Shown here one piece after another: positions 11,034-37,042 of a stretch of 47,140 nt of DNA (position 1 is its first letter; each line of letters starts with the position of its first letter). Made by a program: the position numbers and the translations under genes. The notes beneath the pieces are model-generated. The model was given only the letters and a program-made list of their open reading frames with translations. It did not search any database and was not told the origin of the DNA. Where the stretch lies: NCBI RefSeq assembly GCF_014174395.1, contig NZ_JABEQD010000020.1:1-47140 (forward strand). The letters are read 5' to 3'. This stretch comes from Gluconacetobacter aggeris. Its GTDB lineage: Bacteria > Pseudomonadota > Alphaproteobacteria > Acetobacterales > Acetobacteraceae.

Positions 11034-11034
11034 A

Positions 11035-11195
11035 AGCCTGACCGTAAATGCGCGCTGGCGGCGCGTCCTGTGCGCGTTTCCTGCGCTTCGGTGCTCACTT
11101 CCATCAAGGCCGCTCCGCTCCGATGCTCGGAAACCCACGCCGGGCGCGGCCTTCTGGGCCGCTCTCGCTCACCAGCGCACATTTCCGGTCAGGCT
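11035..11195. repeat. Dispersed palindromic repeat, family A, full-length copy A1
   Basis: A 161-bp element whose ends are inverted repeats: AGCCTGACCG (11035-11044) against CGGTCAGGCT (11186-11195), extending to 22 matches in 24. The centre contains GGCCGCTCCG and ATGCTCGG blocks shared with the copies at 34491-34983. It fills the space between two convergent genes almost exactly: one base after the kinase stop (11031-11033) and directly against the LuxR-type gene stop (11196-11198, minus strand). Its likely role is a bidirectional transcript end or a mobile element; no tail of T residues is seen. Confidence 0.85.
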
Positions 11196-12278
11196 CTAAT
11201 TTGTTATGGATATTTTTGTGATGATGGACATCAATTCATTTTGACTGTTTATATTCAATTTAGAAAATATGGTCTTTATCGACGTTCTCGCGCTTTCGTA
11301 CGATATGTTGAGAATATTGGCACTGTCTTTAAGGGATGTCGTCTGACCAAGTATCTGAGCCAGACTGGCCTCTGCGGGAGAAAGCCCCATGGCACGTAAA
11401 ATGTCCCGTACATGACCGTGAGAACCGTTGAAACCGTAAAAGAAGACGGTTTTACATTTATCATTCATTCCCAGGGAATCGACCATCACATCGGGCAGTG
11501 TGATCAATCTTGCAAGCATCTTCCCCTCGTTGGGACTGCTGAAAAAGGCGACGCCCGTATCAGAGGAAAGGGTAATGATTTTCTCCCATTCCCGATGATT
11601 CGACTTTATGTTGAAATGGATGGAGCCTTCTCTGATAAAGAAGAAGCTGTCCTTCAAGTTTTCAAGGAATTTGTTTATAAATATAACCCTATTTTTTGAA
11701 TCGAGAATGCATATTCCGATATTTATTTTGTTGTAAACCATTTCCATTGTTGAGTTGATGGACGTCAAAGATCTGAATTTATCGGATAAGGTAAGACAAT
11801 TCTTGACGTGATTTGAAATAAACGAAATATCGATGCCGTCGTCGTTCTTTCTTTTGTAATGAAGGCCGATCTGGCCGGCTATGGCGTATTCGTTTCCATC
11901 GAGAGAAATATAGCACCGTTCTGTGCTGCTACATCCATATCTGTTCAAAAAATCAACATAATACTCAGAATTCTTAATTTCGTAATCAGATAATATATCT
12001 GTATCCCTTATAATGATATTTCTTCTATTTTGTGGGGAATTCAATCTGTTTTTTGGGTATACGTATTGATAATACTCAACATATTCCTTATCGGAGATTT
12101 TATTTTTGACGGACGATAAAATCTGATCTTGATTATTGACTATTGCCATTGGAACGACAGCAATACTTTCATAATTAAGAAGGCGCGAAAGTTCCGAAAG
12201 AGCGTTCGTCCATTGCTGCGGAAAGGAAGCAGATTCATATAATTGCGAAAGAACTCTATTCAATTCTTTAGGGTTCAT
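11196..12278 (-). CDS. LuxR-type transcriptional regulator with unrecognised N-terminal sensor domain
   Basis: 360 residues. The C-terminal 60 residues form a LuxR/FixJ-type helix-turn-helix: GLSPAEASLAQIL, then SLKDSANILNISYESARTSI and TIFSKLNINSQNELM, matching the scaffold, positioning and recognition helices. The first 290 residues show no clear acyl-homoserine-lactone-binding signature; the middle part (NIGICILDSKNRVIFINKFLE) resembles a PAS fold. The gene is strikingly AT-rich, with Asn, Ile, Lys and Ser codons ending in A or T, unlike every neighbour, so it is likely acquired. It is divergent from glmS-pgaABCD, and a 22-bp dyad stands in the shared intergenic region, so control of that cluster is likely but unproven. 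Confidence 0.88.
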   Translation of the reverse strand: MNPKELNRVLSQLYESASFPQQWTNALSELSRLLNYESIAVVPMAIVNNQDQILSSVKNKISDKEYVEYYQYVYPKNRLNSPQNRRNIIIRDTDILSDYEIKNSEYYVDFLNRYGCSSTERCYISLDGNEYAIAGQIGLHYKRKNDDGIDISFISNHVKNCLTLSDKFRSLTSINSTMEMVYNKINIGICILDSKNRVIFINKFLENLKDSFFFIREGSIHFNIKSNHREWEKIITLSSDTGVAFFSSPNEGKMLARLITLPDVMVDSLGMNDKCKTVFFYGFNGSHGHVRDILRAMGLSPAEASLAQILGQTTSLKDSANILNISYESARTSIKTIFSKLNINSQNELMSIITKISITN

Positions 12279-12336
12279 GCTTGCTTCTGTTGCATTTATG
12301 AAATAAAGACATCGTTATTATTTTATTAAGAATGAG

Positions 12337-12358
12337 TCAAGTCCCAAATGGGGTTTAT
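12337..12358. promoter_or_regulatory. Candidate operator dyad 1 (upstream of glmS and the LuxR-type gene)
   Basis: A 22-bp inverted repeat of form TCAA-GT-CCCAAATGGG-GT-TTAT. The same design recurs at 14466-14487 upstream of pgaA. Size and symmetry fit a LuxR-type dimer site. It lies 59 bases before the regulator start and about 230 bases before glmS. Confidence 0.5.
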
Positions 12359-12590
12359 GGTCGGGGGTCGGCTTCGCCATTCTCGTTGGCAGGAAGTTTG
12401 TACAGGTAATCGTCCCAGAATTGCGGCCCGTTCCATCCCAGGCCTGACATTCCTGGCCGTCTCCGGCCTGGCGGCGCCGTTGCGGATGGTGCGCCGCCCG
12501 TAGTCCCGGCTCATGGAGCGCGCCGGGCCACCGGGATCGGACTGGGCGGACGATTCAAAGGTGCCGTGAACGCGAAGAAGGAAATGACCG
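12359..12590. other. Rest of the regulator-glmS intergenic region
   Basis: About 230 bases without a supported gene. GC content rises sharply from the AT-rich regulator side toward glmS. The only clear signal is the glmS ribosome-binding sequence AAGAAGGAA ending about 10 bases before the ATG at 12591. Confidence 0.5.
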
Positions 12591-14414
12591 ATGTGTGGAA
12601 TATGCGGCGTTGTGGGATCACGCCAGGTGCAGTCCGTTATTCTGGAGGGCCTGCGGCGGCTGGAATACCGGGGGTATGATTCCGCCGGCATCGCCACGGT
12701 GGTCGATGGCGGCATCGGGCGGCGCCGGGCCGCGGGCAAGCTGGATAATCTGGCGGCGCTGCTGGAGCGGGAGCCTCTGCCCGGCCGAACCGGCATCGGC
12801 CATACGCGCTGGGCGACCCATGGCGCCCCATCCGTCTGTAATGCGCACCCGCATGCGACGCCGCGCGTCGCCATCGTGCATAATGGCATTATCGAAAATT
12901 TCGAAACCCTTCGGCATGAATTGGAGAGTGCCGGCCAGGTTTTCGAAACGGAAACGGACAGCGAGACCATTGCCCTGCTGGTGGATTATCACCTGCGGCG
13001 GGGTCTTGCGCCGAGGGACGCCGCCCTCCAGGCACTGAAGCGCCTGGAGGGTGCGTTTGCCGTCGCCTTGATTTTCGCGGACCATGAAGGGCTGATGATC
13101 GGCGCATGCCACAACGCACCGCTGGCCGTTGGTTTCGGTGAGGGTGACATGTTCCTCGGTTCCGACGCGCTGGCATTGGCTCCGCTGACCCGCCGTATCG
13201 TCTACATGCGCAATGGCGATTGCGTGGTGATGACCGCGCGGGGTGCGGAGTTCATGACGTTCGACGGCACGCCGGTAGAGCGTATCGCGCAGATTACGGC
13301 CCTGACGGTCGATTCCGTCGGCAAGGATGGCTACCGCCACTACATGGAAAAAGAACTCCACGAGCATCCGCAGGTGATCGGGCAGACGTTGCAGCGGATG
13401 GTGGACCCATCGACGCGCAGGATCGTGCTGCCGGATCTGCCTTTCGACCTCGCGCGCGTGCCGCGTGCCATTATAACGGCGTGCGGCTCCGCATTCTATG
13501 CCGGCATGGTTGGCCGGTACTGGCTGGAAGACATTGCGCGCCTGCCTGTCGATATCGATGTCGCCAGCGAGATGCGTTATAGAAATCCGCCCCTTGTGTC
13601 CGGCTCGCTCGGTCTTCTGATCTCGCAATCGGGTGAGACGGCCGATACTCTGGCGGCCCTGCGCGGCTTGCGCGAACGGGCCGTTCACATTCTGTCGGTC
13701 CTGAATGTGGAACACAGCACCATGGCGCGTGAGAGTGACCTCGTGCTGGGTACCGTTGCGGGGCCCGAGATTTCCGTGGCGTCAACCAAGGCCTTTACCG
13801 CGCAACTGACGGTCCTGGCCTGCCTGACCGTCGCGACCGCTCGGGCGCGCGGAACATTGAAGGCTTCGGACGAAGAAGAACTGGTCGCAGCCCTGCTGGA
13901 CCTCCCCAGTCGCGTCGCAGACGTGTTCGGCCAAGGCGATGCCATTCGCCAGATGGCACGGGTCGTCGCCGAGGCGCGGGACGTTCTGTACCTCGGCCGT
14001 GGCAGCATGGTCCCCGTGGCGATGGAGGGGGCGCTCAAGCTGAAGGAGATTTCCTATATTCATGCCGAGGCTTATGCCGCGGGTGAAATGAAGCACGGCC
14101 CGATCTCCCTGATCGACGGCAATGTGCCAATCGTCGCCGCCGTGCCTTCCGGCCCGCTTTTCGACAAGACATCGTCCAATCTACAGGAGGCCAAGGCACG
14201 CGGTGGGCGCCTTCTGGTCTTCACGGACACGGAAGGGGCGGGCCGTATGTCCGCGATGGCCGAACGGGTCGTCGTCCTGCCGCGGGTGCATGGCTTCGTG
14301 GCTCCGATCCTGCACGCCATTCCGATGCAGATGCTGGCGTATGAAGTGGCTGTGCTCAAGGGGACGGATGTCGACCAGCCCCGCAACCTGGCAAAGTCCG
14401 TGACCGTGGAGTGA
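12591..14414 (+). CDS. glmS: Glutamine--fructose-6-phosphate aminotransferase (isomerizing)
   Basis: 607 residues, the standard GlmS length. After removal of Met the N-terminal nucleophile is Cys2 (MCGICGVVG). The glutaminase domain has RRLEYRGYDSAG and GHTRWATHG; two SIS domains follow (ITACGSAFYAG, SQSGETADT, and STKAFTAQ; later GRGSMVPVAMEGALKLKEISY), and the C-terminus ends in LAKSVTVE as usual. It converts fructose-6-phosphate and glutamine to glucosamine-6-phosphate in the cytoplasm, the first step to UDP-GlcNAc. Location directly upstream of pgaABCD and flanked by two copies of the same 22-bp dyad suggests a copy dedicated to exopolysaccharide supply; whether a housekeeping glmS exists elsewhere is unknown. 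Confidence 0.97.
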   Translation: MCGICGVVGSRQVQSVILEGLRRLEYRGYDSAGIATVVDGGIGRRRAAGKLDNLAALLEREPLPGRTGIGHTRWATHGAPSVCNAHPHATPRVAIVHNGIIENFETLRHELESAGQVFETETDSETIALLVDYHLRRGLAPRDAALQALKRLEGAFAVALIFADHEGLMIGACHNAPLAVGFGEGDMFLGSDALALAPLTRRIVYMRNGDCVVMTARGAEFMTFDGTPVERIAQITALTVDSVGKDGYRHYMEKELHEHPQVIGQTLQRMVDPSTRRIVLPDLPFDLARVPRAIITACGSAFYAGMVGRYWLEDIARLPVDIDVASEMRYRNPPLVSGSLGLLISQSGETADTLAALRGLRERAVHILSVLNVEHSTMARESDLVLGTVAGPEISVASTKAFTAQLTVLACLTVATARARGTLKASDEEELVAALLDLPSRVADVFGQGDAIRQMARVVAEARDVLYLGRGSMVPVAMEGALKLKEISYIHAEAYAAGEMKHGPISLIDGNVPIVAAVPSGPLFDKTSSNLQEAKARGGRLLVFTDTEGAGRMSAMAERVVVLPRVHGFVAPILHAIPMQMLAYEVAVLKGTDVDQPRNLAKSVTVE

Positions 14415-14465
14415 ACGGGATGCGCGTGCCTCGTATGTCGTTTTGATCTTTTTATGAAAAATATG

Positions 14466-14487
14466 TCAAGACCCAATTGGGAATTGA
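14466..14487. promoter_or_regulatory. Candidate operator dyad 2 (upstream of pgaA)
   Basis: TCAA-GA-CCCAATTGGG-AA-TTGA, a near-perfect 22-bp inverted repeat with a fully palindromic 10-bp core. It matches the dyad at 12337-12358 in arms, spacing and core. It lies about 50 bases after the glmS stop and 300 bases before pgaA. Confidence 0.55.
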
Positions 14488-14790
14488 CGGTTCGGGGCGG
14501 TCATAGGACGATATTTGGGGCTTGCTGTCGGTCAGTCTCTGTAGACTATCGAAGTCGTGAATGTCCGGGTGAGCGCTTATGAAAGCGGAGTGTAAAATAT
14601 AGTACCGTAGCGCTCATTATTTCGTGTCATTTTGTGCATCGCGATCGGTCATGTCACTATTTACTTCTGAATGGACTTGTTTCATGGTTCGTATGTCTGT
14701 ATTTTAAAAAAATATCGGCATATCCGCGACCGTTTCTCGCGTATTGGATGTTCATTCTGATTCTGTAATAAGTGGATAGATCTCTACGTC
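14488..14790 (+). promoter_or_regulatory. pgaA upstream/leader region
   Basis: About 300 bases, AT-rich relative to both neighbouring genes, without a supported frame. It holds a small perfect hairpin AGTCT-CTGT-AGACT (14534-14547), a distant inverted pair GAGCGCT (14571-14577) / AGCGCTC (14609-14615), and a T/A-rich run around 14698-14712 that could hold a promoter. A long untranslated leader would fit post-transcriptional control, as known for E. coli pgaA (CsrA), but no repeated GGA motifs were confirmed. Confidence 0.4.
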
Positions 14791-17235
14791 ATGGCTTGCG
14801 GATTATCTTATAACGGGCGGTGGAAGGGGAATCGGAACAGGATTTTCTTCTTTGTTTTTATCTATTCCTTTTTCCGGGGCAGCCTGTCCGCGTTTGCCGC
14901 GCAGGCAGGGCTCTACGACACCCTGGTGATCAAGGCCCGCAATGGCGATTATCAACCGATATTGAACTGGCTGCGCGATGCGCAGGAGCAGCGCCCGCTC
15001 AGCGAACGTGAAATTGCCGACTGGATCGAGATCAGCGCCTGGGCCGGGCATGACGGCGACATCGTCGCGCTGTGGCGCCGGGCAGAGGGGCCGTCATTGC
15101 CCGATCATACGAAGCTGGTCGTTGCCAGGGCCTATCGCAACCTGAAGCAATGGCAGCAAGCCCTGGCGCTCTTTCGTCAGGCGGGGGCCGACCATTCTTC
15201 CGACGAGGGGGTGCGCAGCCAGTATCTCATGACCCTGGCGGATGCCCGTTCCTTCAAGGAGGCTCTGGCCCAAGGCGCGGATTTCGCACGGCGGTCCGGT
15301 TCCGCCCGTGCGTATCTGACCCTGTCCTATATTCAGGATGCCGCCGGCCAGCGGGAGGATGCCTGGCAGTCCGCGACCAGGGCCTACAGCCTGGACCCGC
15401 GCAGCAGGGAAGTGGGCTTTGCCTACCTTGATGCCAATGCCGAGAACAGGATCGTCGCGGGCGAGCTGGTCGTCGCCGCGCATTTGCCGCTGGGCAGCGC
15501 GCGGCAGCGGCAGATCGAACTGGCCCAGGGGGCGGAATATGTGCGGATCGGCCTGATTCCTCCTCCGACGGAAAAGAACCGGTTCGTATTGGCCGATCGT
15601 ACATTGGCCTATTATCAGGATCTTCTGCGACGCTACGGAAAAGATCCGGCTGCGAAAGCGGATCTGCGCGTCGCGAGGGTCGACCGCCTGGGTGCCCTGC
15701 TGGCGCGCTATCGGATGCGCGAACTGACGGACGAATATGAGGCGCTCCAGGTGGTGGGACCTCTGCCCGCCTATGCGCGGAACTGGGCGGCCACGGCCTA
15801 TCTCTATCTGCGCCAGCCGGTAAAGGCTGCCGCGATCTGGAAGCAGATCATCGACCTGTCCGACCGCGAGGCCGTGAATCTCTATTTCACGGCCCTGGTC
15901 GAATCCCGCCAATTGCGCGAGGCGAAGGCGCTCGTCGCAGTGCTTGAGAAATCCGTACCATACCAGACGGCTATCTACGGGTTGCCGACGCGGCAGGACA
16001 ATGATCAATGGCTGGACGTGCAGCAGATGCGCGTCACCCTTCAGCAGAACGAGAATCGGCTGTCGCGTGCGCAGAGCCTCGCCGAGCATCTGGCAGGCAC
16101 GGCATCGACCAACCAGGAACTCGCGGTGGATCTGGCGGATGTCTATACCGAGCGCGGCTGGCCCAGAAAGGCCGAGGATATTCTCAAGCGTGCGGAATAT
16201 CTCGATCCCAGCAATATCGGCCTGGAGTCCCAGCAGGGGGTCGATGCCCTGGACCTTCAGGACTGGCGAAATGCCACGCTTCTGACCCGCGATGTCGTCG
16301 GACGGGAGCCGGAGAACGAGACCGTGCGGCGTCTGGCCAGGGCGCTGAGCGTCCATGAGATGATGGAACTGGATATCGAGGGGGACAAGGGCATCAGTTC
16401 CAACAGTCCGGTGACCGGTGCCCATGATTTCGATCTGCGGACGCTGCTGTACAGCATGCCTCTTCACTATAACTGGCGCGTCTTCGCCGGTGTCGGTTAC
16501 AATAACAGTCATTTCGAGGAGGGGACCGGCACCGACCGCGTCCAGATCCTGGGTGTCGAATACAGAAACCGTAACAACTGGATCTCGCTGGAAGGCGATC
16601 ATCATGCTTACGGCCATGGCAACGCATTCGGCGGCGTGCTGTCGGGCTGGCATGATTTCGACGACCATTGGCGCCTGGGCGGCAGCCTGGAACGGCTGGG
16701 CGCGCATGTTCCCCTGAGGGCACTACGCAACAACGTTACGGGCAGCACGGGCGCGCTCTATGTGCTGTGGCGCGAGAACGAGAAGCGCCAGGTGCGGCTT
16801 GATTTCGCCGACAGCCGCTTTTCCGACGGCAACAACCGACAGGAATATAATCTTCTGGCCCAGCAGAGGATTTTCAGTTCGGCACGCTGGCTCCTGGACT
16901 TCACGCCCAGCATTAGCTCCAGCCACAATACGGCGCGCAACACGTTCTATTATAATCCTCATCAGGATCTGGCGATCCTGCCGGCCATCACGGCGGAGGA
17001 AATCCTCTATCGCCGCTACGAGATGCAGTGGAGCCAGACCTTCGAAATTGGAGAAGGTGTCTATGTGGAACGGGGCTATCCCACCAAGGCCATCACCAGT
17101 TTCAGTTATGGCCAGAATTTCCAGTTTGACGACACGCTGGCATTCGGTGCGACCGTGATCTGGGACAAGCGCCCCTATGACGGGGAAAGGCAAAGGAATC
17201 TGGCGATCTCGTTCAATCTTAATTACAGGTTCTGA
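14791..17235 (+). CDS. pgaA: PNAG export outer membrane porin PgaA
   Basis: 814 residues, close to E. coli PgaA (807). After a basic start a hydrophobic signal core (IFFFVFIYSFF) ends near AFAAQAG. The first 500 residues or so are helical tetratricopeptide-like repeats (for example AYRNLKQWQQALALFRQAG, and AEDILKRAEYLDPSNIG). The last 300 are a beta-barrel with alternating strands and a terminal Phe (LAISFNLNYRF), the signal for outer membrane insertion. The periplasmic repeats would guide deacetylated poly-GlcNAc to the 16-strand pore. First gene of pgaABCD; pgaB starts five bases after its stop. The start codon has no strong ribosome-binding site, so a nearby later start is possible. Confidence 0.95.
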   Translation: MACGLSYNGRWKGNRNRIFFFVFIYSFFRGSLSAFAAQAGLYDTLVIKARNGDYQPILNWLRDAQEQRPLSEREIADWIEISAWAGHDGDIVALWRRAEGPSLPDHTKLVVARAYRNLKQWQQALALFRQAGADHSSDEGVRSQYLMTLADARSFKEALAQGADFARRSGSARAYLTLSYIQDAAGQREDAWQSATRAYSLDPRSREVGFAYLDANAENRIVAGELVVAAHLPLGSARQRQIELAQGAEYVRIGLIPPPTEKNRFVLADRTLAYYQDLLRRYGKDPAAKADLRVARVDRLGALLARYRMRELTDEYEALQVVGPLPAYARNWAATAYLYLRQPVKAAAIWKQIIDLSDREAVNLYFTALVESRQLREAKALVAVLEKSVPYQTAIYGLPTRQDNDQWLDVQQMRVTLQQNENRLSRAQSLAEHLAGTASTNQELAVDLADVYTERGWPRKAEDILKRAEYLDPSNIGLESQQGVDALDLQDWRNATLLTRDVVGREPENETVRRLARALSVHEMMELDIEGDKGISSNSPVTGAHDFDLRTLLYSMPLHYNWRVFAGVGYNNSHFEEGTGTDRVQILGVEYRNRNNWISLEGDHHAYGHGNAFGGVLSGWHDFDDHWRLGGSLERLGAHVPLRALRNNVTGSTGALYVLWRENEKRQVRLDFADSRFSDGNNRQEYNLLAQQRIFSSARWLLDFTPSISSSHNTARNTFYYNPHQDLAILPAITAEEILYRRYEMQWSQTFEIGEGVYVERGYPTKAITSFSYGQNFQFDDTLAFGATVIWDKRPYDGERQRNLAISFNLNYRF

Positions 17236-17239
17236 CGTC

Positions 17240-22144: not shown

Positions 22145-22531
22145 ATGCTTCTGATCGACGACCCCGCCATTGTGGCTGAAGTGACCGCGATGGCCGACCG
22201 GTATGAGGCGGCGCTGATGGCGAACGAGCTGGAGACGCTGGATGCGCTGTTCCGCGATGCGCCGGAGACGATCCGTTATGGTGTGGGTGAGATGCTGTAT
22301 GGCTTTGCCGAGATCGCGGCCTTTCGCAAGGGGCGGGCTGGCGGGTCGCCGCAGCGGCGGGTGCTGCGGCGGGTAATCACGACCTTCGGGAGCGATCTGG
22401 CCACCGTCAATCTGGAATTCCAGCGCGAGGGGGTCACGCGCATCGGGCGGCAGAGCCAGACCTGGGTGCGCACGGATGAAGGCTGGAAGATTACCTGCGC
22501 GCATGTCTCGCTGATGGCCGACATATCCTGA
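22145..22531 (+). CDS. HpxZ-like (DUF3225/SnoaL-fold) protein
   Basis: 128 residues from ATG 22145, which has AAGAGGA seven bases upstream; a longer start at 22085 lacks support. The sequence runs ...YEAALMANELETLDALF..., RYGVGEMLYGFAEIAAFRKGR and ...QSQTWVRTDEGWKITCAHVSLM, the cone-shaped NTF2/SnoaL pattern of DUF3225 proteins annotated as HpxZ (oxalurate catabolism) or AtzH. Neither purine nor triazine genes are next to it, so the biochemical role here is open. Family A repeat begins at its stop codon. Confidence 0.8.
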   Translation: MLLIDDPAIVAEVTAMADRYEAALMANELETLDALFRDAPETIRYGVGEMLYGFAEIAAFRKGRAGGSPQRRVLRRVITTFGSDLATVNLEFQREGVTRIGRQSQTWVRTDEGWKITCAHVSLMADIS

Positions 22532-22623
22532 GAACCTGCCTGGACATGCGCGCTGGTGGCGATCCGGCGCGCGTTTCCTTCGGGCCGCCCTTGCGCGCCA
22601 GCCCACAGTTCCAGACAGGTTCT
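22531..22623. repeat. Dispersed palindromic repeat, family A, short copy A2
   Basis: A 93-bp element with inverted ends AGAACCTGCCTGG / CCAGACAGGTTCT. It keeps the terminal repeats and the GGCGATCCGGCGCGCGTTTCC left arm of family A but lacks most of the centre. The first A is the last base of the upstream stop codon TGA. Confidence 0.8.
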
Positions 22624-22641
22624 GCGTGGTGGCGGAGGGTT

Positions 22642-22763
22642 GTTCTTTTTTGAAAAAAAGAACCAAAAAACTTCTGATCTATTCAGGAGCTTTTTGCCTG
22701 CTCGTTGCGAGGCGCCTGAACGGCTCAAAAGTCTTTTTGCTTCTTTTTCTTCAGAAAAAGAAG
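22642..22763. repeat. Composite three-hairpin repeat, family B, copy B1
   Basis: About 122 bp made of an A/T-rich hairpin (GTTCTTTTTT / AAAAAAAGAAC, 22642-22663), a central CAGG...CCTG inverted pair, and a second A/T-rich hairpin (CTTCTTTTTC / GAAAAAGAAG, 22740-22763). The same blocks occur inverted at 39670-39790 and in decayed form at 25430-25540. It separates the family A copy A2 from the cysG stop, and U-rich tracts on both strands make a bidirectional terminator likely. Confidence 0.8.
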
Positions 22764-22768
22764 GGTCT

Positions 22769-25429: not shown

Positions 25430-25540
25430 AAGAGCCAAAAAACTTTGATTCGTTCAGGATTCTTGCTGGGGAAGAGGAAGAGAAGGCGATGGCTCTGAAC
25501 GGATCAAAAGTCGTTTTGCTTCTTTTTCGGAAGTCGGGAT
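25430..25540. repeat. Composite repeat, family B, decayed copy B2
   Basis: Shares with B1 the blocks GAGCCAAAAAACTT, TTCAGGA, CTGAACGG-TCAAAAGTC and TTTTGCTTCTTTTTC, but the hairpin arms are eroded and the right-hand arm is incomplete. It lies directly after the mobA stop and ends 2 bases before the stop of the next, convergent gene. Confidence 0.7.
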
Positions 25541-25542
25541 GA

Positions 25543-26880: not shown

Positions 26881-26940
26881 GATGGCCTCGTACTCTGTGG
26901 CTCCGCGCACGCATCCGGAGCCGGTGACGCTGGGAAGGGG

Positions 26941-27886: not shown

Positions 27887-27920
27887 GGGTGCGTTCTTTC
27901 CGAGCAGGCGTTGATGTTTT

Positions 27921-28325
27921 TCACTCTTCGTAGTGGGAGGAATTGACGACCTTCGATCCGTCCACCCCAAACCGGGCAAGGCTATCGCCCATCATGGCCT
28001 GCCGATGTCCTGCAAACAGGTCGCGTGGCGTCGAATTGTGAGCGTCATCGGTCGTGCGGCTGGAAATATCTAAGACGCTGTTTGCAAAGTCACTCTGCCG
28101 GACATCGCCCCGGACGGCCCGGACATCTTCGAAGGTCGGTGTCTGCGCGATCGCATCTGGCAGGTGATCGGCCGCATTCGGCACGGGGCGGATCGTACGC
28201 CCGCGATCTGTTGCCGGCAAATTGACCGAGGTCGACAACGGCAGGGCTGTCGCGGTGAGTGGCGTGACACGACCAGCAGGCCCAAAGGGGCACGGGGGAG
28301 AGGCAGGGAGAGCGAGCACATCCAC
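27921..28325 (-). CDS. Doubtful hypothetical protein
   Basis: A 134-residue frame. The N-terminal part is Pro/Thr-rich; the C-terminal 60 residues (from about TFEDVRAVRGDVRQSDF to GSKVVNSSHYEE) have a balanced, globular-looking composition, more so than the competing frames. I recognise no motif. It could be a small real gene, the remnant of a larger one, or chance. It lies upstream of and in line with the membrane protein gene. Confidence 0.3.
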   Translation of the reverse strand: MDVLALPASPPCPFGPAGRVTPLTATALPLSTSVNLPATDRGRTIRPVPNAADHLPDAIAQTPTFEDVRAVRGDVRQSDFANSVLDISSRTTDDAHNSTPRDLFAGHRQAMMGDSLARFGVDGSKVVNSSHYEE

Positions 28326-28487
28326 TCCTTTTCCATAGCGGAATGGTATGTCTTTTTACGAAATTCGTCCATCCATGGAAAGTCGGGCGTGCGGGGGGAT
28401 TCGCCTTGCGGGGAATCGCTCTTTGGAGCGACGGGATGCTTGCTGTAGAGTTGGGGTCGAATCACATCCGGTGAATTGAGCATTAGA

Positions 28488-29873: not shown

Positions 29874-29887
29874 GGGGGTGAGCGGTA

Positions 29888-29916
29888 AAAGACGGAAACC
29901 CACGGTTTCCGTCTTT
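29888..29916 (+). terminator. Rho-independent terminator after the Nramp-like gene
   Basis: Perfect 13-bp stem AAAGACGGAAACC (29888-29900) / GGTTTCCGTCTTT (29904-29916) with a CAC loop, starting 15 bases after the stop codon. The T-run is within the stem end (CTTTG). Confidence 0.8.
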
Positions 29917-30007
29917 GGGTGCTGCCGTCTGGTGGGGTGGGCCGTATGGTCCGGGATGTAACGTTCGCTCCCCCAGGAAACGGCCCCGAGGCCGGGAAGA
30001 GGTCACG

Positions 30008-30604
30008 ATGACGAAGCTGCTGGTTCTCTATTATTCCACCTATGGACATGTCGAGACGATGGCCGGGGCCGTCGCCGAGGGAGCCCGCGCGGCGGGCGTC
30101 GAGGTCGATATCAAGCGCGTGCCGGAGACGGTGCCCGAGGAGATCGCGAAGGCGCATCATTTCAAGCTCGACCAGGCGGCGCCGGTCGCGACCCCGGCCG
30201 ATCTGGCGGAGTATGACGCCATCATCATCGGTGCGCCGACGCGCTTCGGGCGGCTGCCGGCGCAGATGGCGGCCTTCTGGGACCAGACGGGCGGGCTGTG
30301 GCTGAAGGGTGCGCTGGTCGGCAAGGTGGGCGCGGCCTTCACCTCCACCGCCAGCCAGCATGGCGGGCAGGAAACGACGCTGTATTCGCTGCTGTCCAAC
30401 CTGATCCATCACGGCATGGTCATCAGCGGCCTGCCCTACAGCTTCCAGGGCCAGTTGAAGCTGGATGAGGTGACGGGCGGCGCGCCCTATGGCGCCACCA
30501 CGATCGCTGCCGGTGACGGGTCGCGCGCCGTGAGCGCCAACGAGCTGGATGGTGCGCGCTTCCTCGGCCAGCACGTCGCCGGCCTGGCCAGGAAACTCAC
30601 CTGA
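30008..30604 (+). CDS. wrbA: NAD(P)H:quinone oxidoreductase WrbA
   Basis: 198 residues from ATG 30008 (GAAGAGG upstream). Flavodoxin-like FMN site [14 protein letters not shown] at the start, then [30 protein letters not shown] and the WrbA-specific [23 protein letters not shown] and [13 protein letters not shown]. Two-electron quinone reductase that limits redox cycling; cytoplasmic, tetrameric in the family. Stands alone between a terminator and a repeat remnant that begins at its stop codon. Confidence 0.96.
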
Positions 30605-30640
30605 GCCTGCCCGAAAATGCGCGTCGGATCGCCGGCAGGG
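30604..30640. repeat. Family A remnant (left end only)
   Basis: Directly at the wrbA stop the sequence reads AGCCTGCCCGAAAATGCGCG, the left end of family A, after which similarity fades (GGATCGCCGGC). No right-hand inverted end was found before the phospholipase stop at 30658. Confidence 0.55.
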
Positions 30641-30657
30641 CGAGTTGGCAAACAGCC

Positions 30658-33162
30658 TCAAATCATGCCCATGGCGGGGTCCGTCCGTCCGGGGTGGCCG
30701 GTTTCGACCCGGCCGGCGAACTGGTAGGCCAGTTGGGGCTCGGCCGGGGTGGTGAGCGTGATGTCGTACCACATCGCGCCCGGTGCCAGGTCGAATGCTG
30801 CCGTGGCAGTTTGGCCCGGGGTTACGCGCAGTGTCTGCCGTGCGCCCCGGTGGCCGGCCAGGGTGCAGGCCAGGGTGATGGTCCGGTGGTCGGTATTGGT
30901 CACGCGCAGGATCAGGTCCCGGCCCTTTCCGTGCAGGTATCCGCATTCCGCCTGCAGGCACAATCCGCCCTGCCGGCCCCTGAAGCGGCGGTAGAAACCG
31001 TTGGGTGCGTGGACCGACACGTCATATAGCCTGCCCGCGAACGACGTCAGGTCGAAGGCCACGTCGAGCGTGTCGCCGGCTGCCACGGCGTAGGTGCCGG
31101 CCTGCATGGCCCCCCTTTTCCTGGTGCCGTCCAGGCCGACGCCGTGGCGGTAGATATTGAAGGGCAGGCCCGCCGCGCGGGCGCCGTGCAATTTCTGGCC
31201 GGCGTGCAGGCGCAGCGCGAGCTGCTCGCCATCCGGCGTCAGGCCGCCATCGCAATAGGGTTCGTAGGGCAGGGCGCAGGAGGGGCGGGTGCCGGGTTCC
31301 TGCCGCACCATGGTGCGCAGGCCTGTCGGATCGGTGCGGAGCACGGCCAGTTCTCTTGCGCGCAGTGCGTGAAAGCCGCCGGGCAGGGGCTGGTCGCGGG
31401 CTTGCTCGATGGTCTGGAGATGCGCGTCGCGGTCCAGATAGGGCAGGGCGGGCACCGTGCCGTCAAAGGGGCGGAAGCAGGAGGTGAGGTCGCCGCTGAT
31501 CGCCCGGCGCCAGGGCGAGATGTTGGTTTCGGTGACCGTCTTGCCGAATTTCCGCTGGATGAAGGTTTCCAGGAATTGCAGGGTCGATGTGTGCTCGAAG
31601 AGCTGCGAGTTGACCCAGCCGCCGCGGCTCCAGGGCGAGGCCACGATCATGGGCACGCGGAAACCCAGCCCGATGGGCCCGGTGCGTGCCAGGCGAGGGG
31701 GGACGCCCCGGTCCTCCTCGTCGCGGGCGGAGGTATATTCCAGACCGTCGGGGCCGATCGCGGCCGATGAGCGGCCGGTCTCCGGACGGTACGGGTCCGG
31801 CGCCGCGTAGGAACAGCCATGGTCGAAATAGCCGTCATTCTCATCGTAGGTGATGAGGAAGATGGTCTTTTTCCAGATTTCCGGGTTTTCGGTCAGGATA
31901 TCCATGATTTCCGACACGTACCAGGCGCCGTACCATGGCGAGGTGGGGTGGTCGGAAAAATGCTCGGGCGCGGCCAGCCATGAGACGGTGGGCAGCGCGC
32001 CCGTGCGCGCATCCTGCCGGAACTGGTACAGGATATCGCCCCTGGGGGCGTCCATGTGCCGCTTTCCGTCCTCGTCGGGGAAGGACAGGGTTTCGAGGGT
32101 CCTGTAATCCGGGTCGCCGCTGTTGATGACGAACGCCTTTTCGAACAGGGCGCGTTCTTCCGGCCGGAGTTTTTCCACCGTGCGGCCGGCCGAGGCGCGG
32201 CGGTGGGTCAGGACCGCCAGCAGGGCCCGGGCTTCGGCCAGTTGTTCGTCGCGCGTTTCGGAGACGAGCATTTCCTGCGTCATCAGCCGGTCGATATGGT
32301 CGGTGCAGTCACCGATGCGTGCTTCAAGCCAGTCGCTGAATCCGGGATTGGCCGAGACGCAATATTGATCGAAACATTCCAGGACGTTGCAGCCGAAATT
32401 GGACAGCCACGCCCGTTCCGGGCCGGTCATGCCACCGGTCTGGGAGAGTTCGTTCTGGTAGAATTTCCAGGAAATGCCGGCTCTCTCCAGCCGTTCGGGG
32501 AAGGTGGTCCAGTTCATGCCGCCCTCCAGGATTTCGCCGTTGCGCATGTAGACCCTGGAATCGGGCGCCTGCAGGTCGCGGACGGTGCCGGTCCAGAACA
32601 GCAGGCGGTTGGGGGTCGTGCCGGTCATCGCGCCGCAATAATGCTGGTCGCAGACGGTGAAGGCATCGGCCAGCGCGTAGTAGAACGGCAGGTCCTCGCG
32701 CGTGTAATAGCCCATCGTCAGCGGATAACGCGCATAGCCCGCGTGCTGCGAGGCCTTGGCGTCGATCCAGCGATCGTGGCCGCCATCGTTCCATGCATCG
32801 ACCTGGCTGTCGCGGGAATGGGGGATGGAGCCCATCCAGGTGATGCGCGTGTCGCGGATGTTCAGCCGCCAGGGCAGGTACGTATGGCCCGAGGCCCCGG
32901 ACTGGGCGAAGACCGGATTGCCGTTGGCAAGGCGCAGCGCCCTGGGATCGTTGAAGCCGCGCACGCCCTGCAGCGTGCCGAACACATGGTCGAACGAGCG
33001 GTTTTCCTGCATCAGGATCACGACATGCTCGGCATCCTGCCAGGTCGAGCCCGGATCGGGCGCGATGGCGAAGGCGCGCCGGATCGCGTCGGGCAGCGTC
33101 GCGGTGGCGCCCGCCGCACCGGACAGGAGAGCGTATTTGAGGAAGTCGCGGCGTGTCGTCAT
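30658..33162 (-). CDS. Phosphocholine-specific phospholipase C, Tat-exported
   Basis: 834 residues from ATG 33162, which gives the twin-arginine signal TTRRDFLKYALLSGAAG. The phosphoesterase domain (about 40-560) has HVVILMQENRSFDHVFGTLQGVRGF, later TYDENDGYFDH and GFRVPMIVASPWSRGG, the metal-binding and catalytic pattern of the PlcH/PlcN acid-phosphatase superfamily. Two beta-rich C-terminal DUF756-type domains follow, one with LYDVSVHAPNGFYRRFRG. It would act outside the cytoplasmic membrane on phosphatidylcholine or sphingomyelin head groups, releasing phosphocholine. It is longer than Pseudomonas PlcN (about 690), mainly in the middle and C-terminal region. Confidence 0.93.
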   Translation of the reverse strand: MTTRRDFLKYALLSGAAGATATLPDAIRRAFAIAPDPGSTWQDAEHVVILMQENRSFDHVFGTLQGVRGFNDPRALRLANGNPVFAQSGASGHTYLPWRLNIRDTRITWMGSIPHSRDSQVDAWNDGGHDRWIDAKASQHAGYARYPLTMGYYTREDLPFYYALADAFTVCDQHYCGAMTGTTPNRLLFWTGTVRDLQAPDSRVYMRNGEILEGGMNWTTFPERLERAGISWKFYQNELSQTGGMTGPERAWLSNFGCNVLECFDQYCVSANPGFSDWLEARIGDCTDHIDRLMTQEMLVSETRDEQLAEARALLAVLTHRRASAGRTVEKLRPEERALFEKAFVINSGDPDYRTLETLSFPDEDGKRHMDAPRGDILYQFRQDARTGALPTVSWLAAPEHFSDHPTSPWYGAWYVSEIMDILTENPEIWKKTIFLITYDENDGYFDHGCSYAAPDPYRPETGRSSAAIGPDGLEYTSARDEEDRGVPPRLARTGPIGLGFRVPMIVASPWSRGGWVNSQLFEHTSTLQFLETFIQRKFGKTVTETNISPWRRAISGDLTSCFRPFDGTVPALPYLDRDAHLQTIEQARDQPLPGGFHALRARELAVLRTDPTGLRTMVRQEPGTRPSCALPYEPYCDGGLTPDGEQLALRLHAGQKLHGARAAGLPFNIYRHGVGLDGTRKRGAMQAGTYAVAAGDTLDVAFDLTSFAGRLYDVSVHAPNGFYRRFRGRQGGLCLQAECGYLHGKGRDLILRVTNTDHRTITLACTLAGHRGARQTLRVTPGQTATAAFDLAPGAMWYDITLTTPAEPQLAYQFAGRVETGHPGRTDPAMGMI

Positions 33163-33407
33163 GATCGGCTCAACCCATGCGTGTCCCTGGTGGCGGAATC
33201 CCTGTCGGTGGGATGCCACATACGGCATGGGGCCGCATTTCCATTGTGACAATTCGATGAAACCGGGCCGGGGGCGGCGGGTTCCCCGGTGCGCCGTCAC
33301 CGGCCCGACATTGCCAACTTGTCAGGAAAAATGATCTGGAAGCGCATTGGAAATGCCGGCCCGGTGATCTATGGCGCTTCAGGCGCCATGACCGATATCC
33401 GGGGACC

Positions 33408-34490
33408 ATGACCAGGACCATTCGTTTTCTTCTGCTGCTGCCCTGCCTGTCCGGTCTGCAAGGATGCTACGAAATCGGGCCCACCCGGCTGGACCGGGAC
33501 CAGAGCGATTATTCGCGCGCGCTGACCAGCTCGGGCAAGCAGCAGACGCTGCTGAACGTCGTGCGCCTGCGCTATGCCGACACGCCGGGCTTTCTGGACA
33601 CCACCCAGATGATCTCGGGCTATCAGTTGCAGCGCAATCTCTCTGTCGGGATCGGGACCTATTCGCTGGCCAGCCGGCCCTATGGCGGCGCGGGCATGCA
33701 GGTGCAGGAAAGCCCGACCTTTACCTTCCAGCCCGTGACCGGCGATGCATACGCGCAGAGCATCCTGCGCCCGCTGCCGCCGGGCAACCTGCTGCCGCTG
33801 GCCATGGGCGGGCTGCCGATCGACGTGCTGTTCCGGCTGGCGGTGCAGTCGGTCAACCTGATCAGCAATGCGGGCTCGCTGGGTGGGGATGTGGGGCGCG
33901 GGTCGCCGGTGTTCTTCGACCTGATCTACGATCTGCGCCTGCTGCAACTGGCGGGGCTGCTGGGCATCCAATTGGAGCGCAGCCCCACCGCCACGGCCAC
34001 CGACAAGGACGGGGCGGCCGACCGCGTGTTCCTGTCGATCGCCTCGACCGACGATCCGGACCTGGCGCGGGTGGTGCATGACACGCGCCGCCTGCTGGGC
34101 ATGGCGCAGGATGACGAGCGGGTGGAGGTCGTCTATGGCGGCGGGCGGCCGCGCCGGGGGCAGATCCGGCTGCTGACGCGCACGGTGCTGGGGGTGCTGG
34201 GGCAGATCGCCTACCAGATCGACGTGCCGGAGGAGGATATTACCTCGGGCCGCACGCGCCCCACCATCCGGCTGGTCGGGCGGGAAACCCGGCCGATCGT
34301 CGTCATTCACGTGACGAAGGAACGCCCGGAGGCGGTCTTCTCCTGGACCAACTACAATCACAAATTCTACTGGATCGCGGACGACGATTTCGACAGCAAG
34401 CTGGCCTTCACCATGCTGCAGATCCTGCTGGAGCTGTCCAAGACCAGCAAGGGGCCGAATACCATCGTCACCATTCCCGCCAACGGCTAG
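33408..34490 (+). CDS. Lipoprotein of unknown function
   Basis: 360 residues. Signal MTRTIRFLLLLPCLSGLQGC with lipobox LQGC and lipidation at Cys20. The mature protein begins with a segment like YSRALTSSGKQQTLLNVVRLRYAD, typical of hypothetical proteobacterial lipoproteins of similar length, continues with a long coiled region (SLGGDVGRGSPVFFDLIYDLRLLQLAGLLG) and ends in strand-rich sequence with AFTMLQILLELSKT. No enzyme motif is visible. It is divergent from phospholipase C with about 245 bases between and ends at the first base of the family A array. Confidence 0.8.
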   Translation: MTRTIRFLLLLPCLSGLQGCYEIGPTRLDRDQSDYSRALTSSGKQQTLLNVVRLRYADTPGFLDTTQMISGYQLQRNLSVGIGTYSLASRPYGGAGMQVQESPTFTFQPVTGDAYAQSILRPLPPGNLLPLAMGGLPIDVLFRLAVQSVNLISNAGSLGGDVGRGSPVFFDLIYDLRLLQLAGLLGIQLERSPTATATDKDGAADRVFLSIASTDDPDLARVVHDTRRLLGMAQDDERVEVVYGGGRPRRGQIRLLTRTVLGVLGQIAYQIDVPEEDITSGRTRPTIRLVGRETRPIVVIHVTKERPEAVFSWTNYNHKFYWIADDDFDSKLAFTMLQILLELSKTSKGPNTIVTIPANG

Positions 34491-34983
34491 AGCCGGCCTG
34501 GAAATGCGCGCTGGTGGCGATCCGACGCGCGCTTCCTGTGCTCCGATGCTCACGGCCATGAAGGCCGCTCCGCTTCGGTGCTCGGAACCGCACGACGGGC
34601 GTGCCGCTTTGCGGCACTCTCGCTCACCAGCGCGCATTTCCAGGCCGGCTCTGCGGGTGGTGCAGTCTGGAGTGCGCTGGCGGCGATCCGACGCGCGTTT
34701 CCTGTGCTCCGATGCTCACGGCCATGAAGGCCGCTCCGCTTCGGTGCTCGGAACCGCACGACGGGCGTGCCGCTTTGCGGCACTCTCGCTCACCAGCGAG
34801 CATGTCCAGGCCGGCTCTGCGGGTGGTGCAGTCTGGAGTGCGCTGGTGGCGATCCGACGCGCGCTTCCTGTGCTCCGATGCTCACGGCCCATAAGGCCGC
34901 TCCGCTTCGGTGCTCGGAACCGCACGACGGGCGCGCCGCTTTGCGGCACTCTCGCTCACCAGCCCGCATTTCCAGGCCGGCTC
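34491..34983. repeat. Tandem array of three family A repeats (166-bp period)
   Basis: Landmark CTCCGATGCT recurs at 34541, 34707 and 34873, a period of 166 bp. The first copy is complete with inverted ends AGCCGGCCTGG (34491-34501) / CCAGGCCGGCT (34640-34650). The second and third lack the left end sequence and begin GTGCAGTCTGGAGTGCGCTGG instead, but keep the right end. The copies differ at only a few positions, so the expansion looks recent. The array starts right after the lipoprotein stop TAG. Confidence 0.9.
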
Positions 34984-35088
34984 TGCGGGTGGGTTCGACC
35001 CGGGGGACGCGTTTCCAGATGGGATCTGCGGGCGTTCGATAAGGTCGGATTTGATCATGCGGTATTTGTGCTTGAGAAATTGAGTGCA
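34984..35088. other. Spacer between the repeat array and the FNR-type box
   Basis: About 100 bases, with no supported frame; composition shifts from GC-rich (GGGTTCGACCCGGGGGACGCG) to AT-rich toward the regulatory site. Confidence 0.4.
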
Positions 35089-35102
35089 TTGATCTGGATC
35101 AA
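35089..35102. promoter_or_regulatory. FNR/FixK-type binding site
   Basis: TTGATCTGGATCAA is an exact match to the FNR consensus TTGAT-N4-ATCAA and a perfect dyad except for the central two bases. It is followed by an AT-rich stretch with -10-like TATATT (35118-35123), and lies about 150 bases before the PAS-GGDEF-EAL gene. Distances fit activation by an anaerobic or microaerobic FNR-type regulator. Confidence 0.65.
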
Positions 35103-35251
35103 ATAAATAATCAATATTATATTACTTTGTGCTCCTTGCATAGCTTTGCAAAAATTAAGCAAGATTTTGAATGATTTCTTTGCGGGGGCTGCGTGCGTCC
35201 GTTGGATGTGCGGGCATCGCTTGTGGAATGAATCGCGCCTCCCTCTTTTGA

Positions 35252-36982
35252 ATGAGGAATCATTCCCGTTTGCTAATGATGGGACGTGAACTGTTGAATG
35301 ACAGGTTCAAGACGAAGGAACGCGAATTTCTTCTGCGCATGATCGACGATCTGCCGGTGGCGGTCATGACCGTGGAGCCGGAGACGATGCTGATCGACTA
35401 TGTCAACAACACGTCCCGGGCGCTGATCCGCAGCCTCGAACATCTTCTGCCGATCCGCGCCGATGCATTGATCGGCACCTCCATCGACGTCTTTCACCGC
35501 TGTCCGGCCTATCAGCGCCATATCCTGTCGGACCCGAGCAACCTGCCGCACAGTGCCCGCATCGGGCTGGGGGAGGAGGTGCTGGACCTCAAGGTCTCCG
35601 CCATTACCGATGCGGACGGCCGGTATCTCGGGCCCATGCTGACCTGGGCGCTGGTGACGAAGGAAGTCGAGGCGGAAAAGCGCATCGGCTATCTGGCGCA
35701 TCATGATGCGCTGACCGGGTTGCCCAACAGGCTGATATTCCGCAGGACGCTGGAGGAACGGCTGGCGGTGCCCGATACGGGCTTCGGGCTGCTCTATATC
35801 GATCTCGATGGTTTCAAGCAGGTCAACGATGCGCGTGGGCACCAGGTGGGCGACGCGCTGCTGCGGCAGGTTGCCGACCGGCTGAGGGCGCTGTGCGGCG
35901 ACCCGGCGATGATGCTGACGCGGCTGGGGGGTGACGAGTTCGCGATCCTGCTGCCCCATGACCACCAGCAGCCGGCCGGACTGCACGCGGAGCGGGTCGT
36001 GGCGGCGCTGGGCCGGCCCTTCGACCTCGAACAGGGGCAGACGATCCAGATCGGGGCGTCGGTCGGCATTGCGCTGGCGCCGGAGCATGGCGAGGCGCCC
36101 GAGAGCCTGCTGGCGCGTGCCGACATGGCGCTGTATGCGGCCAAGGAGGATGGAAAAGGGGTCGCCCGGCTCTTCTCGCGCGATCTGGAACTGCGCGTGC
36201 AGGAACGGACGCGCCTGGAGAAGAGCCTGTATGCCGCCCTGCAGGACCGGCAGGGCCTGTTCGTCTTCTATCAGCCGATCATCGACCTGTATTCGGGGGG
36301 CGTCATGGCGCGCGAGGCGCTGGCCCGCTGGCATCATCCGCAGCGGGGCTGGATCTCGCCCGCCGAATTCGTGCCGGTGGCCGAGCAATGCGGGCTGATC
36401 GACCGGTTGGGGGAATTCGTCCTGGACCGGGCCTGCCGGAGTGCCGCGCAATGGGATGACGGGGCGCATGTTGCCGTCAACATCTCGGCGATTCAACTGG
36501 GGAAGGGCACGCTGGTGCCGGCCGTCTCCGCAGCACTTGCGGCATCCGGCCTGCCGGCGGAGCGGCTGGAAATCGAGGTGACGGAAACCGCGCTGCTGGG
36601 TGACGAGCAGGGCGGTATCCAGGACCTGCTGACCCTGCGCCAGATGGGCGTGCGTATCGCGCTGGACGATTTCGGCACCGGCTATTCGTCGCTGGCCCAT
36701 CTGCGGGCCTTTCCGTTCGACAAGATCAAGATCGACGGTTCGTTCGTCCGCGATGCCCTGACGCGGCCGGAATGCGCCGCCGTGGTCCGGGCCATTGCCG
36801 ATCTGGGCCAGCGCCTGGGGGTGCGGACCGTCGCGGAAGGGGTCGAGACCGAAGAGCAGCTTGCCCTTGTCCGCAGGGAAGGATGTGCCGAGGTGCAGGG
36901 CTATCTGCATGGCCGGCCCATGCCGGCGGCGGAAGATGCCGAGCTGGTGGCACGTCTGGATGAGGGGCTGGGCGCCTGCTGA
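35252..36982 (+). CDS. PAS-GGDEF-EAL protein, c-di-GMP synthesis/hydrolysis
   Basis: 576 residues; starts at 35252 or at the ATG pair near 35276. N-terminal PAS-like sensor (about 20-145, with IDDLPVAVMTVEPETMLIDYVN). GGDEF domain about 150-310: motif GGDEF at 226-230 intact, no RxxD inhibition site upstream. EAL domain about 325-570: EAL at 355-357, EVTETALL, DDFGTGYSSL and EGVETEEQL all present, so both activities look possible; in acetic acid bacteria such proteins are often phosphodiesterases. No membrane segment, so cytoplasmic. An FNR-type box upstream suggests oxygen-dependent expression. Family A sequence begins at its stop codon. It could affect the PgaCD synthase encoded 15 kb away, an inference. 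Confidence 0.95.
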   Translation: MRNHSRLLMMGRELLNDRFKTKEREFLLRMIDDLPVAVMTVEPETMLIDYVNNTSRALIRSLEHLLPIRADALIGTSIDVFHRCPAYQRHILSDPSNLPHSARIGLGEEVLDLKVSAITDADGRYLGPMLTWALVTKEVEAEKRIGYLAHHDALTGLPNRLIFRRTLEERLAVPDTGFGLLYIDLDGFKQVNDARGHQVGDALLRQVADRLRALCGDPAMMLTRLGGDEFAILLPHDHQQPAGLHAERVVAALGRPFDLEQGQTIQIGASVGIALAPEHGEAPESLLARADMALYAAKEDGKGVARLFSRDLELRVQERTRLEKSLYAALQDRQGLFVFYQPIIDLYSGGVMAREALARWHHPQRGWISPAEFVPVAEQCGLIDRLGEFVLDRACRSAAQWDDGAHVAVNISAIQLGKGTLVPAVSAALAASGLPAERLEIEVTETALLGDEQGGIQDLLTLRQMGVRIALDDFGTGYSSLAHLRAFPFDKIKIDGSFVRDALTRPECAAVVRAIADLGQRLGVRTVAEGVETEEQLALVRREGCAEVQGYLHGRPMPAAEDAELVARLDEGLGAC

Positions 36983-37042
36983 GCCTGTCTGGATATGTGC
37001 GCTGGCGGTGCGTCCTGTGCGCGTTTCCTGTGCTTCGGTATG
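36982..37042. repeat. Family A, truncated copy
   Basis: Starts at the last base of the TGA stop: AGCCTGTCTGG...TGTGCGCTGG, then GTGCGTCCTGTGCGCG and TTTCCTGTGCTTCGGTATG. Only the left half of the element is present; the sequence then turns AT-rich. Confidence 0.75.

Follow-up and report, generated by a model that had tools for sequence, protein, structure and literature searches.

A palindromic MITE of Gluconacetobacter with TNA targets, found mostly in one orientation at stop codons

Results

Copies in the window

The window analyzed here is a stretch of 47,140 nucleotides from Gluconacetobacter aggeris, in which six elements or fragments of one palindromic family had been reported in an earlier note to lie at or within one base of stop codons; all six places are present in the sequence. 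A full-length copy of 163 bp, with ends AAGCCTGACC...GGTCAGGCTC, occupies 11034-11196 on the forward strand and adjoins the TGA of ORF 9453-11033, which we take, following the name given in that note, to encode a histidine kinase. This stop codon (11031-11033, forward strand) is the left 3-bp flank of the element and presumably a target copy. At the other end, the last base of the element is shared with the TAG stop (11196-11198, reverse strand) of the LuxR-type ORF 11196-12278, an AT-rich frame with a negative coding score. Complete copies were said to have a matching inverted right end, and the 24-base ends of this one do pair at 22 of 24 positions, as counted by eye. A copy at G000:C1:443930, in the window's own genome (G000), is 99% identical to it by BLAST.

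The remaining copies are also on the forward strand. An internally deleted copy of 91 bp (22532-22622) follows the TGA (22529-22531) of an hpxZ-like gene, a site with longer forms of the element in genomes G007, G003 and G001. A left-end fragment (30603-30623) overlaps the TGA of wrbA (30602-30604), where G003 has a full element, and positions 30624-30659 (reverse strand) hold an end of a second, also palindromic, family (GAGGCTGTTTG...), adjoining the stop codon of ORF 30658-33300, which runs convergently. The first base of another full-length copy (34490-34651) is the G of the TAG of a lipoprotein gene (34488-34490), and two further tandem units without the left stem follow it in a 166-bp register (34674-34983). 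Finally, a left-end fragment (36981-37039) overlaps the TGA (36980-36982) of a GGDEF-EAL gene, a site occupied by a full element in G007. A search of Rfam with positions 10900-37300 and E values up to 1 gave no match to the element, its one weak match (31674-31903) being outside it.

Copy number and placement at gene ends

The absence of copies outside the window, contemplated in the earlier note, was not borne out: the element is a high-copy family in its own genome, with at least 48 BLAST matches (40 of 186 candidates scored) and at least 92 covariance-model matches (150 of 5041 candidates scored), some of the latter being one copy found on both strands. The family was also present in all 13 other genomes of the genus that were searched. 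For counting, we pooled the 104 best-scoring copies among all matches (56 from G000 and 48 from G007), leaving aside later tandem units, a second record of the window copy, the duplicate locus L019 and partial BLAST hits. They form 78 site groups, in which some neighboring sites are merged, in such a way that three components hold 3, 4 and 6 copies. Genes were called from ORF length and a codon score trained on the window, and the frame at L126 shows that such calls can mislead.

An ORF of at least 90 codons ends at -1 to +2 of the left end in 49 of the 78 groups, 41 of them with a positive coding score, against about 5% expected if the TNA stops and the noncoding TNA of the window were hit equally (18/363, from a crude gene caller), which agrees with the previous assertion that random insertion would not produce this pattern. 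Left ends lie at stops far more often than right ends (49 versus 7, p = 7e-9; with coding score 41 versus 1, p = 2e-11). Among the 65 groups in which the gene on the left runs toward the element, the distance from the stop is at most 3 bp in 40 and 4-30 bp in 5, and for right-hand convergent genes a placement within 3 bp was found in 2 of 29. Gene-end placement thus extends genome-wide, and copies scattered without relation to stops were not the picture found, even if a considerable minority of copies lies at a distance from any called stop. Six of the 49 stops are TAG, which is not TNA and counts against the insertion model proposed below.

Orientation is nearly always the same relative to the gene whose stop the element follows; between same-direction neighbors, 38 copies are ++ and 6 are --. 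In the more distant species G011, all 16 copies examined follow a gene end, 13 of them exactly, and none is reversed; this count covers 16 of 30 loci, the other 14 being tandem neighbors that were left out.

The proposal that stop codons come from the element itself does not hold in general, given that the stop is present at the empty sites L002, L011 and L133 and in those orthologues of hpxZ, wrbA and the lipoprotein gene that lack the element. In a minority of groups (8 of 78 by one count, 7 by another) an ORF does end on a stop inside the element.

Insertion, target duplication and decay

Empty and filled versions of the same site were found between close species at five loci (L002, L113, L126, L133 and L007), with one TGA or TCA when empty and two when filled, and a sixth site (L011) is compatible with a 3-bp duplication. 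Each pair alone permits 3 to 6 bases, because the ends of the element repeat the flank, and all five are reconciled by a single fixed length and register, 3 bp. Identical 3-bp flanks were detected in 21 of the 78 groups (TGA 16, TCA 3, TTA 1, CAG 1), compared with a mean of 11.4 and a maximum of 20 in 2000 shuffles. The element is therefore a MITE that inserts with duplication of a 3-bp target, TGA or TCA, which can include the stop codon: it is short, gene-less and multi-copy, has terminal inverted repeats, and shows the duplication at empty sites (five clean pairs plus the compatible one). With only 160-165 bp and no transposase of its own, it does not count as an IS.

The short copies arose by internal deletion, which fits the earlier picture of an active parent and decayed copies. 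Sites L138, L111 and L114 hold full elements in G007 and copies of 57-60 bp in G000; L138 has a 63-bp copy in G003, and the short copy at L111 belongs to another sequence subtype than the full one. Insertion into pre-existing terminator hairpins, hinted at by copy-specific outer stems, was rejected, as no junction hairpin was seen by eye at the empty sites L002, L113, L126, L133 and L007.

Similarity to IS1031-type elements

The ends of the element and its TNA target resemble those of ISGdi1/IS1031A, of the IS5 family. A TNA target is the rule of the IS1031 group, and the element has the 3-bp TNA target copies of this group. In G004, ISGdi1 (named by annotation) has ends GAGCCCGATCCGAAAGTT, and 10 of its 12 full copies lie between identical TNA triplets. 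The IS1031/ISGdi1 ends GAGCCCGATCCGAAA agree at 12 of 15 bases with a common form of the element's ends, as judged by eye; by contrast, ISGdi1 is 930 bp long, carries a transposase and has TGA at just 1 of its 12 sites. Ends and target together suggest an IS1031-type transposase as the helper. Against this, in G000 no close ISGdi1-type transposase was found among 12 loci compared (best identity 26-30%), and no parent IS with matching ends at 5 PF13340 loci and 7 of 9 PF01609 matches.

Fold and covariation

The fold of the copy at 11034-11196 exceeds chance, with z values of -6.15 on one strand and -8.07 on the other. It is maintained across copies by compensatory changes: 32 of 54 pairs are altered on both sides (203 cells), a level reached in none of 500 shuffles. 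There is some chance, clearly below even, that the arms covary through template-switch correction of the palindrome at the DNA level and not through selection on the fold, as double Watson-Crick changes (203) far exceed one-sided ones (21 G-U and 53 A-C), even though the stem mismatches at the hpxZ site are partly uncorrected in G000. Such correction concerns the fold only and can be compatible with the MITE reading.

That the element is kept as a 3'-UTR structure, either a transcription terminator or an mRNA stabilizer, would accord with the compensatory changes and with its sense orientation 3' of genes, as well as with the excess of ++ over -- copies (38 versus 6) between same-direction neighbors; we nevertheless regard it as rather unlikely. 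In the sense RNA, A-C mismatches are more frequent than G-U pairs (53 versus 21), and the antisense RNA is the more stable in 60 of 60 copies (the first 60 of the 104), the opposite of what selection on a sense RNA predicts; such selection was set aside on account of the mismatch count. An uninterrupted stretch of at least four T near the right end (within 12 bases) occurs in 3 of 104 copies, so the hairpin followed by a T run of an intrinsic terminator is generally lacking. A strong terminator would also be awkward in 16 of 25 left-stop copies, where the co-directional next gene starts 31-122 bp on, and deleted copies persist.

Related core in other bacteria

At stops in Ochrobactrum and other bacteria we found a similar core flanked by different ends, a reading based on 34 loci outside Gluconacetobacter, minus L353 and L328 (core at a contig edge), with L356-L385 left out. 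The inner core, TGCTCAC-N8..14-GCTCCGCTYCGRTGCTC, was found in Alphaproteobacteria, Legionella and Bacillus, including other phyla. It is combined in some cases with ends like those of IS1031 and TNA targets, in others with CACTACAG ends and what looks like a TA target. The Ochrobactrum copies with GAGCC ends have identical TNA flanks in 7 of 7 cases; for O. teleogrylli, 29 of 46 matches were examined. It is conceivable, though we would not expect it, that the core acts as a transferable unit, directing small transposons to stops or safely anchoring them there, in one orientation and with any transposase.

Discussion

Taken as a whole, these data make it probable that the element is a MITE mobilized by an IS1031-type transposase at TNA and retained best in sense orientation at gene ends. 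A gene-less palindrome of 160-165 bp would depend on an IS1031-like transposase of the IS5 family acting in trans, and would insert at TNA with duplication of those three bases, as is seen at empty sites. As TGA and TAA are themselves TNA, a hit on such a stop leaves a complete stop before the element and the upstream protein unchanged, the situation found at L002 and L011. Insertions within genes would be lost, and sense copies at gene ends would be the best tolerated, or may be mildly useful as a rigid mRNA hairpin behind the stop, in such a way that they would accumulate. Internal deletions would later shorten the copies, as observed at three sites, and the tandem repeats seen would also be later products, by a putative route.

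The earlier note offered targeting of gene ends, or retention only there, as alternatives; the placement stands, and the two options are not cleanly separated. In favor of retention, an ORF of at least 90 codons with a positive coding score has its stop at -8 to +14 in 9 of 21 identical-flank groups, compared with 41 of the 57 remaining groups (p = 0.03) and all 16 G011 copies (p = 0.0002). Identical flanks indicate age only roughly, and 4 of the 16 G011 copies also bear them. With the exact position (-2 to +2) the age trend is weak: 9/21 against 32/57 of the others (p = 0.32) and 13/16 in G011 (p = 0.04).

That the element-transposase complex itself picks stop codons and a fixed orientation, with little added by selection, appears improbable to us, and retention looks likelier. 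The cues for targeting might be the sequence around CTGA, the structure of the DNA where genes end, or a link to transcription or translation. In its favor, the spike at 0 bp from the left stop is sharper than gene-end tolerance predicts, because an insertion 4-100 bp further downstream should do hardly more harm; C precedes TGA in 27 of 31 NTGA left-flank groups versus 10 of 23 window stops (p = 0.001); and the orientation skew is already present in identical-flank copies (TGA 16 versus TCA 3, p = 0.004), so that selection would have to act early. Against it, identical-flank copies are less often at stops (9/21 versus 41/57), and five groups (L006, L007, L113, L121 and L138) have identical TGA flanks without a called gene end. 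Likewise L126, scored at a stop through a negative-score frame, actually lies between two apparent genes, presumably scpB and tatB judging from their translations. Moreover, the stop types used (38/6/5) are much like those of the window genes (17/5/1), and ISGdi1 has TGA at 1 of 12 copies.

A REP/REPIN-like element moved by a RAYT (Y1) transposase, to which the family is akin as a high-copy, mostly intergenic palindrome, is practically discarded, since Y1_Tnp (PF01797) is absent from all 14 genus genomes (0/14, versus 5/14 control genomes) and the element shows a 3-bp target duplication. Integron attC sites, also considered, have GTTRRRY core sites and are recombined by an integrase. Our literature search, in which subscription literature was thinly covered, found no account of a bacterial mobile element placed so exactly at stops, in one orientation and genus-wide, and the accessible portions of PMC2229807, PMC2267715, PMC3049150, PMC4686929, PMC6267812, PMC10800456 and PMC3163539 do not describe the element. 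The nearest is the pneumococcal BOX, also a small mobile repeat at gene 3' ends, for which the available text reports that 36 of 58 overlapping CDSs overlap it at their extreme 3' end; there (PMC3049150) BOX encodes the stop and no fixed orientation is mentioned, whereas here the existing stop is usually kept. ERIC/MITEPlu5 is a folded MITE of about 120-130 bp, whose orientation is crucial for its effect on the upstream mRNA (PMC2229807, citing De Gregorio 2005), and is in this respect comparable to our fixed-orientation element, but it is described, in the portion available, as of IS630 type with a TA target (PMC6267812). The Bru-RS1/2 repeats of Brucella, another alphaproteobacterium, are palindromic and 103-106 bp long, a likeness of available description and not of sequence.

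For a transposon that restores the stop through its target copy, a stop codon is a natural safe harbor. If targeting is true, transposition is guided by the structure of gene ends or by translation; if selection accounts for the pattern, dozens of genes per genome have acquired a folded 3' end. The young empty and filled pairs between sister species make both directly testable.

Copies of the element in the window and in other genomes

The window holds two complete copies of the palindromic element, of 163 bp (11034-11196) and 162 bp (34490-34651, followed by two tandem units), an internally deleted copy of 91 bp (22532-22622) and two left-end fragments (30603-30623 and 36981-37039), and a stop codon is found at the start of each of them or overlapping it by one or two bases. 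The coordinates of the earlier note, and its match of 22 out of 24 positions between the element ends, were correct to within a base or two.

BLAST detected at least 48 matches in the G. aggeris genome itself (4.32 Mb, 61 contigs) and, this genome being counted, matches in 22 of the 60 genomes searched, namely every one of the 14 Gluconacetobacter genomes, 5 of the 22 from elsewhere in the family and 3 of the 24 from outside it, so that the further copies sought outside the window do exist. A covariance model was built from 41 copies and used with a threshold of E 0.001 or better and 150 candidates scored per genome; including copies matched on both strands, it gave at least 92 matches in G. 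aggeris, at least 113 in G. tumulicola LMG 27725 and at least 41 in G011, the complete genome of a more distant species.

The length classes, attributed earlier to a parent and decayed copies, arise because copies at the same site were shortened: at loci L138, L111 and L114 a full copy in G. tumulicola corresponds to one of 57, 58 or 60 bp in G. aggeris, while in G. asukensis the L138 copy measures 63 bp and the other two are full or nearly full length. The short copy at L111 is to be taken with caution, as it belongs to another subtype and may represent a separate insertion or conversion.

Other repeats were also observed. Tandem arrays of the element with a period of about 160-166 bp occupy 34508-35005 of the window, where the left stem is missing from later units, and 961764-962726 of contig C1 of G011, with six consecutive covariance-model matches. 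Another palindromic family, whose ends read GAGGCTG, lies at 30624-30659 and at loci L146, L152 and L134; those at L146 and L152 and one of those at L134 are also matched by the covariance model, and they start at TGA. An AT-rich repeat of the CTTCTTTTTC...GAAAAAGAAG type has three window copies (22640-22764, 25486-25528 and 39669-39790), 22642-22721 and 39711-39790 being 90% complementary over 80 bases, and direct repeats spaced by 246 bases, 90-93% alike, fill 46496-47140 up to the contig end.

Mobility of the element

The element is securely a MITE. Empty sites in sister strains, suggested earlier as a check, gave five pairs with a target duplication, L002 and four more found by a search with the joined flanks of 17 sites. 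The L002 copy, 99% identical to the window copy at 11034-11196, is missing in the closely related species G. tumulicola and G. asukensis, the site being CATCTGAGACATCC when empty and CATCTGA-element-TGAGACATCC when filled; L113, L126 and L007 have one TGA when empty and two when filled, and L133 likewise one and two TCA. A sixth site, L011, is compatible with a 3-bp duplication. Taken singly, a pair is compatible with a duplication as long as 4 to 6 bases because the element ends repeat the flank, and only 3 bases fit all five pairs with a fixed length and register. Identical 3-bp flanks were found in 21 of the 78 groups into which 104 copies from G. aggeris and G. tumulicola were pooled by flank similarity.

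With regard to the helper, ISGdi1, a 930-bp insertion sequence in the genome of G. diazotrophicus PA1 5, is annotated as an IS1031A-related member of the IS5 family. Its ends are GAGCCCGATCCGAAAGTT, 12 of whose first 15 bases match, by eye, a common form of the element's ends, and 10 of its 12 full copies have identical TNA flanks, the exceptions being one TTA/TAA and one TAT/TAT. No close relative of its transposase was found in G. aggeris among the 12 loci compared, and since the best reach only 26-30% identity, the helper is one that we infer, likely a transposase of IS1031 type.

Placement at stop codons

A same-strand ORF of at least 90 codons ends at -1 to +2 of the left end in 49 of the 78 groups (41 with a positive coding score), and 7 groups have a reverse-strand ORF ending likewise at the right end, of which 1 scores positive for coding. 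By a simple, crude gene caller, which a long frame such as that at L126 can mislead, the left gene points to the element in 65 groups, with its stop at 3 bp or less in 40, 4-30 bp in 5, 31-100 bp in 3, further than 100 bp away in 10 and within the element itself in 7; among 29 convergent genes on the right, the first four bins hold 2, 6, 10 and 11. Between same-direction genes the orientation was sense in 38 cases versus antisense in 6. In G011, a same-strand ORF precedes all 16 copies examined (13 within 2 bp), with 0/16 at the right end. TGA, TAG and TAA are used 38, 6 and 5 times at the element, and 17, 5 and 1 times by the window genes. At the wrbA site of another genome, G005, the wrbA stop has no copy, but the convergent gene carries one at its own stop, in the sense orientation for that gene. 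Downstream of the hpxZ-like gene of this genome (L054, contig C8) there is a long G run where relatives have the element.

That the element supplies the stop codons, as once proposed, holds only for a minority, the seven or eight groups, depending on the gene-calling analysis, in which the ORF stop lies inside it; where it is absent, orthologues of hpxZ, wrbA and the lipoprotein gene end in a stop at the same position, and at L002, L011 and L133 the empty site already contains the stop. These three are the ones at a called gene stop among the six empty/filled sites; L113 lies 27 bases behind one, and L126 and L007 have none called there.

Gene-end counts by flank identity lean towards retention. 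Under a broad rule (a positively scoring ORF of at least 90 codons, with its stop at -8 to +14), 9 of 21 identical-flank groups are at gene ends versus 41 of 57 others (p 0.03) and 16 of 16 G011 copies (p 0.0002); under an exact rule (-2 to +2) the values are 9/21, 32/57 (p 0.32) and 13/16 (p 0.04), and a looser count without coding score gave no difference (11/21 versus 38/57, p 0.30). The deficit under the broad rule speaks against targeting, in which the placement would arise at insertion; the 0-bp spike and the orientation bias, present among younger copies too, speak for targeting, which is the less likely of the two causes.

Fold of the element

The predicted fold, with 54 pairs, has a long stem that closes it, an inner arm and a side hairpin, and 96.4% of the cells are paired. 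Both-sided changes affect 32 pairs and 203 cells, against shuffle means of 15.9 and 52.6 (0/500 shuffles as high) and maxima of 13 and 23 in slid-structure controls. The symmetry is real, although it does not have the look of selection for sense RNA alone: on the sense strand A-C mismatches (53) are commoner than G-U pairs (21), and the antisense RNA folds more stably in 60 of 60 copies folded. DNA-level correction of the palindrome is a fair rival explanation for the symmetry of the arms.

A core shared beyond the genus

A scan with the inner core gave at least 110 stretches, the loci listed including Ochrobactrum, Phyllobacterium, Mesorhizobium, Nitratireductor, Devosia, Bosea, Legionella and Bacillus. 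In Bacillus (L288, L312, L314 and L330) the core has a different conserved surround and adjoins terminator-like hairpins. For 32 of 34 listed loci outside Gluconacetobacter, with ends defined by a crude repeat finder, 15 show an ORF of at least 80 codons with its end at 0 to +4 of the left end and 5 show one no more than 5 bases from the right end, one locus being counted in both. O. teleogrylli carries three sets of ends on one core (CACTACAG..., GAGCCTGTTCC... and GTGTCTGATCC...), with identical TNA on both sides in all 7 cases of the GAGCC set; among 29 copies, a gene end is found at -3 to +8 of the left end in 14 and near the right end in 4, of which 2 have both. Relative to the core, the elements are oriented at gene ends as they are in Gluconacetobacter, which speaks for a candidate cause of the placement within the core and not in any single transposase. 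That core and orientation appear to be shared beyond Gluconacetobacter is the most surprising part of these results.
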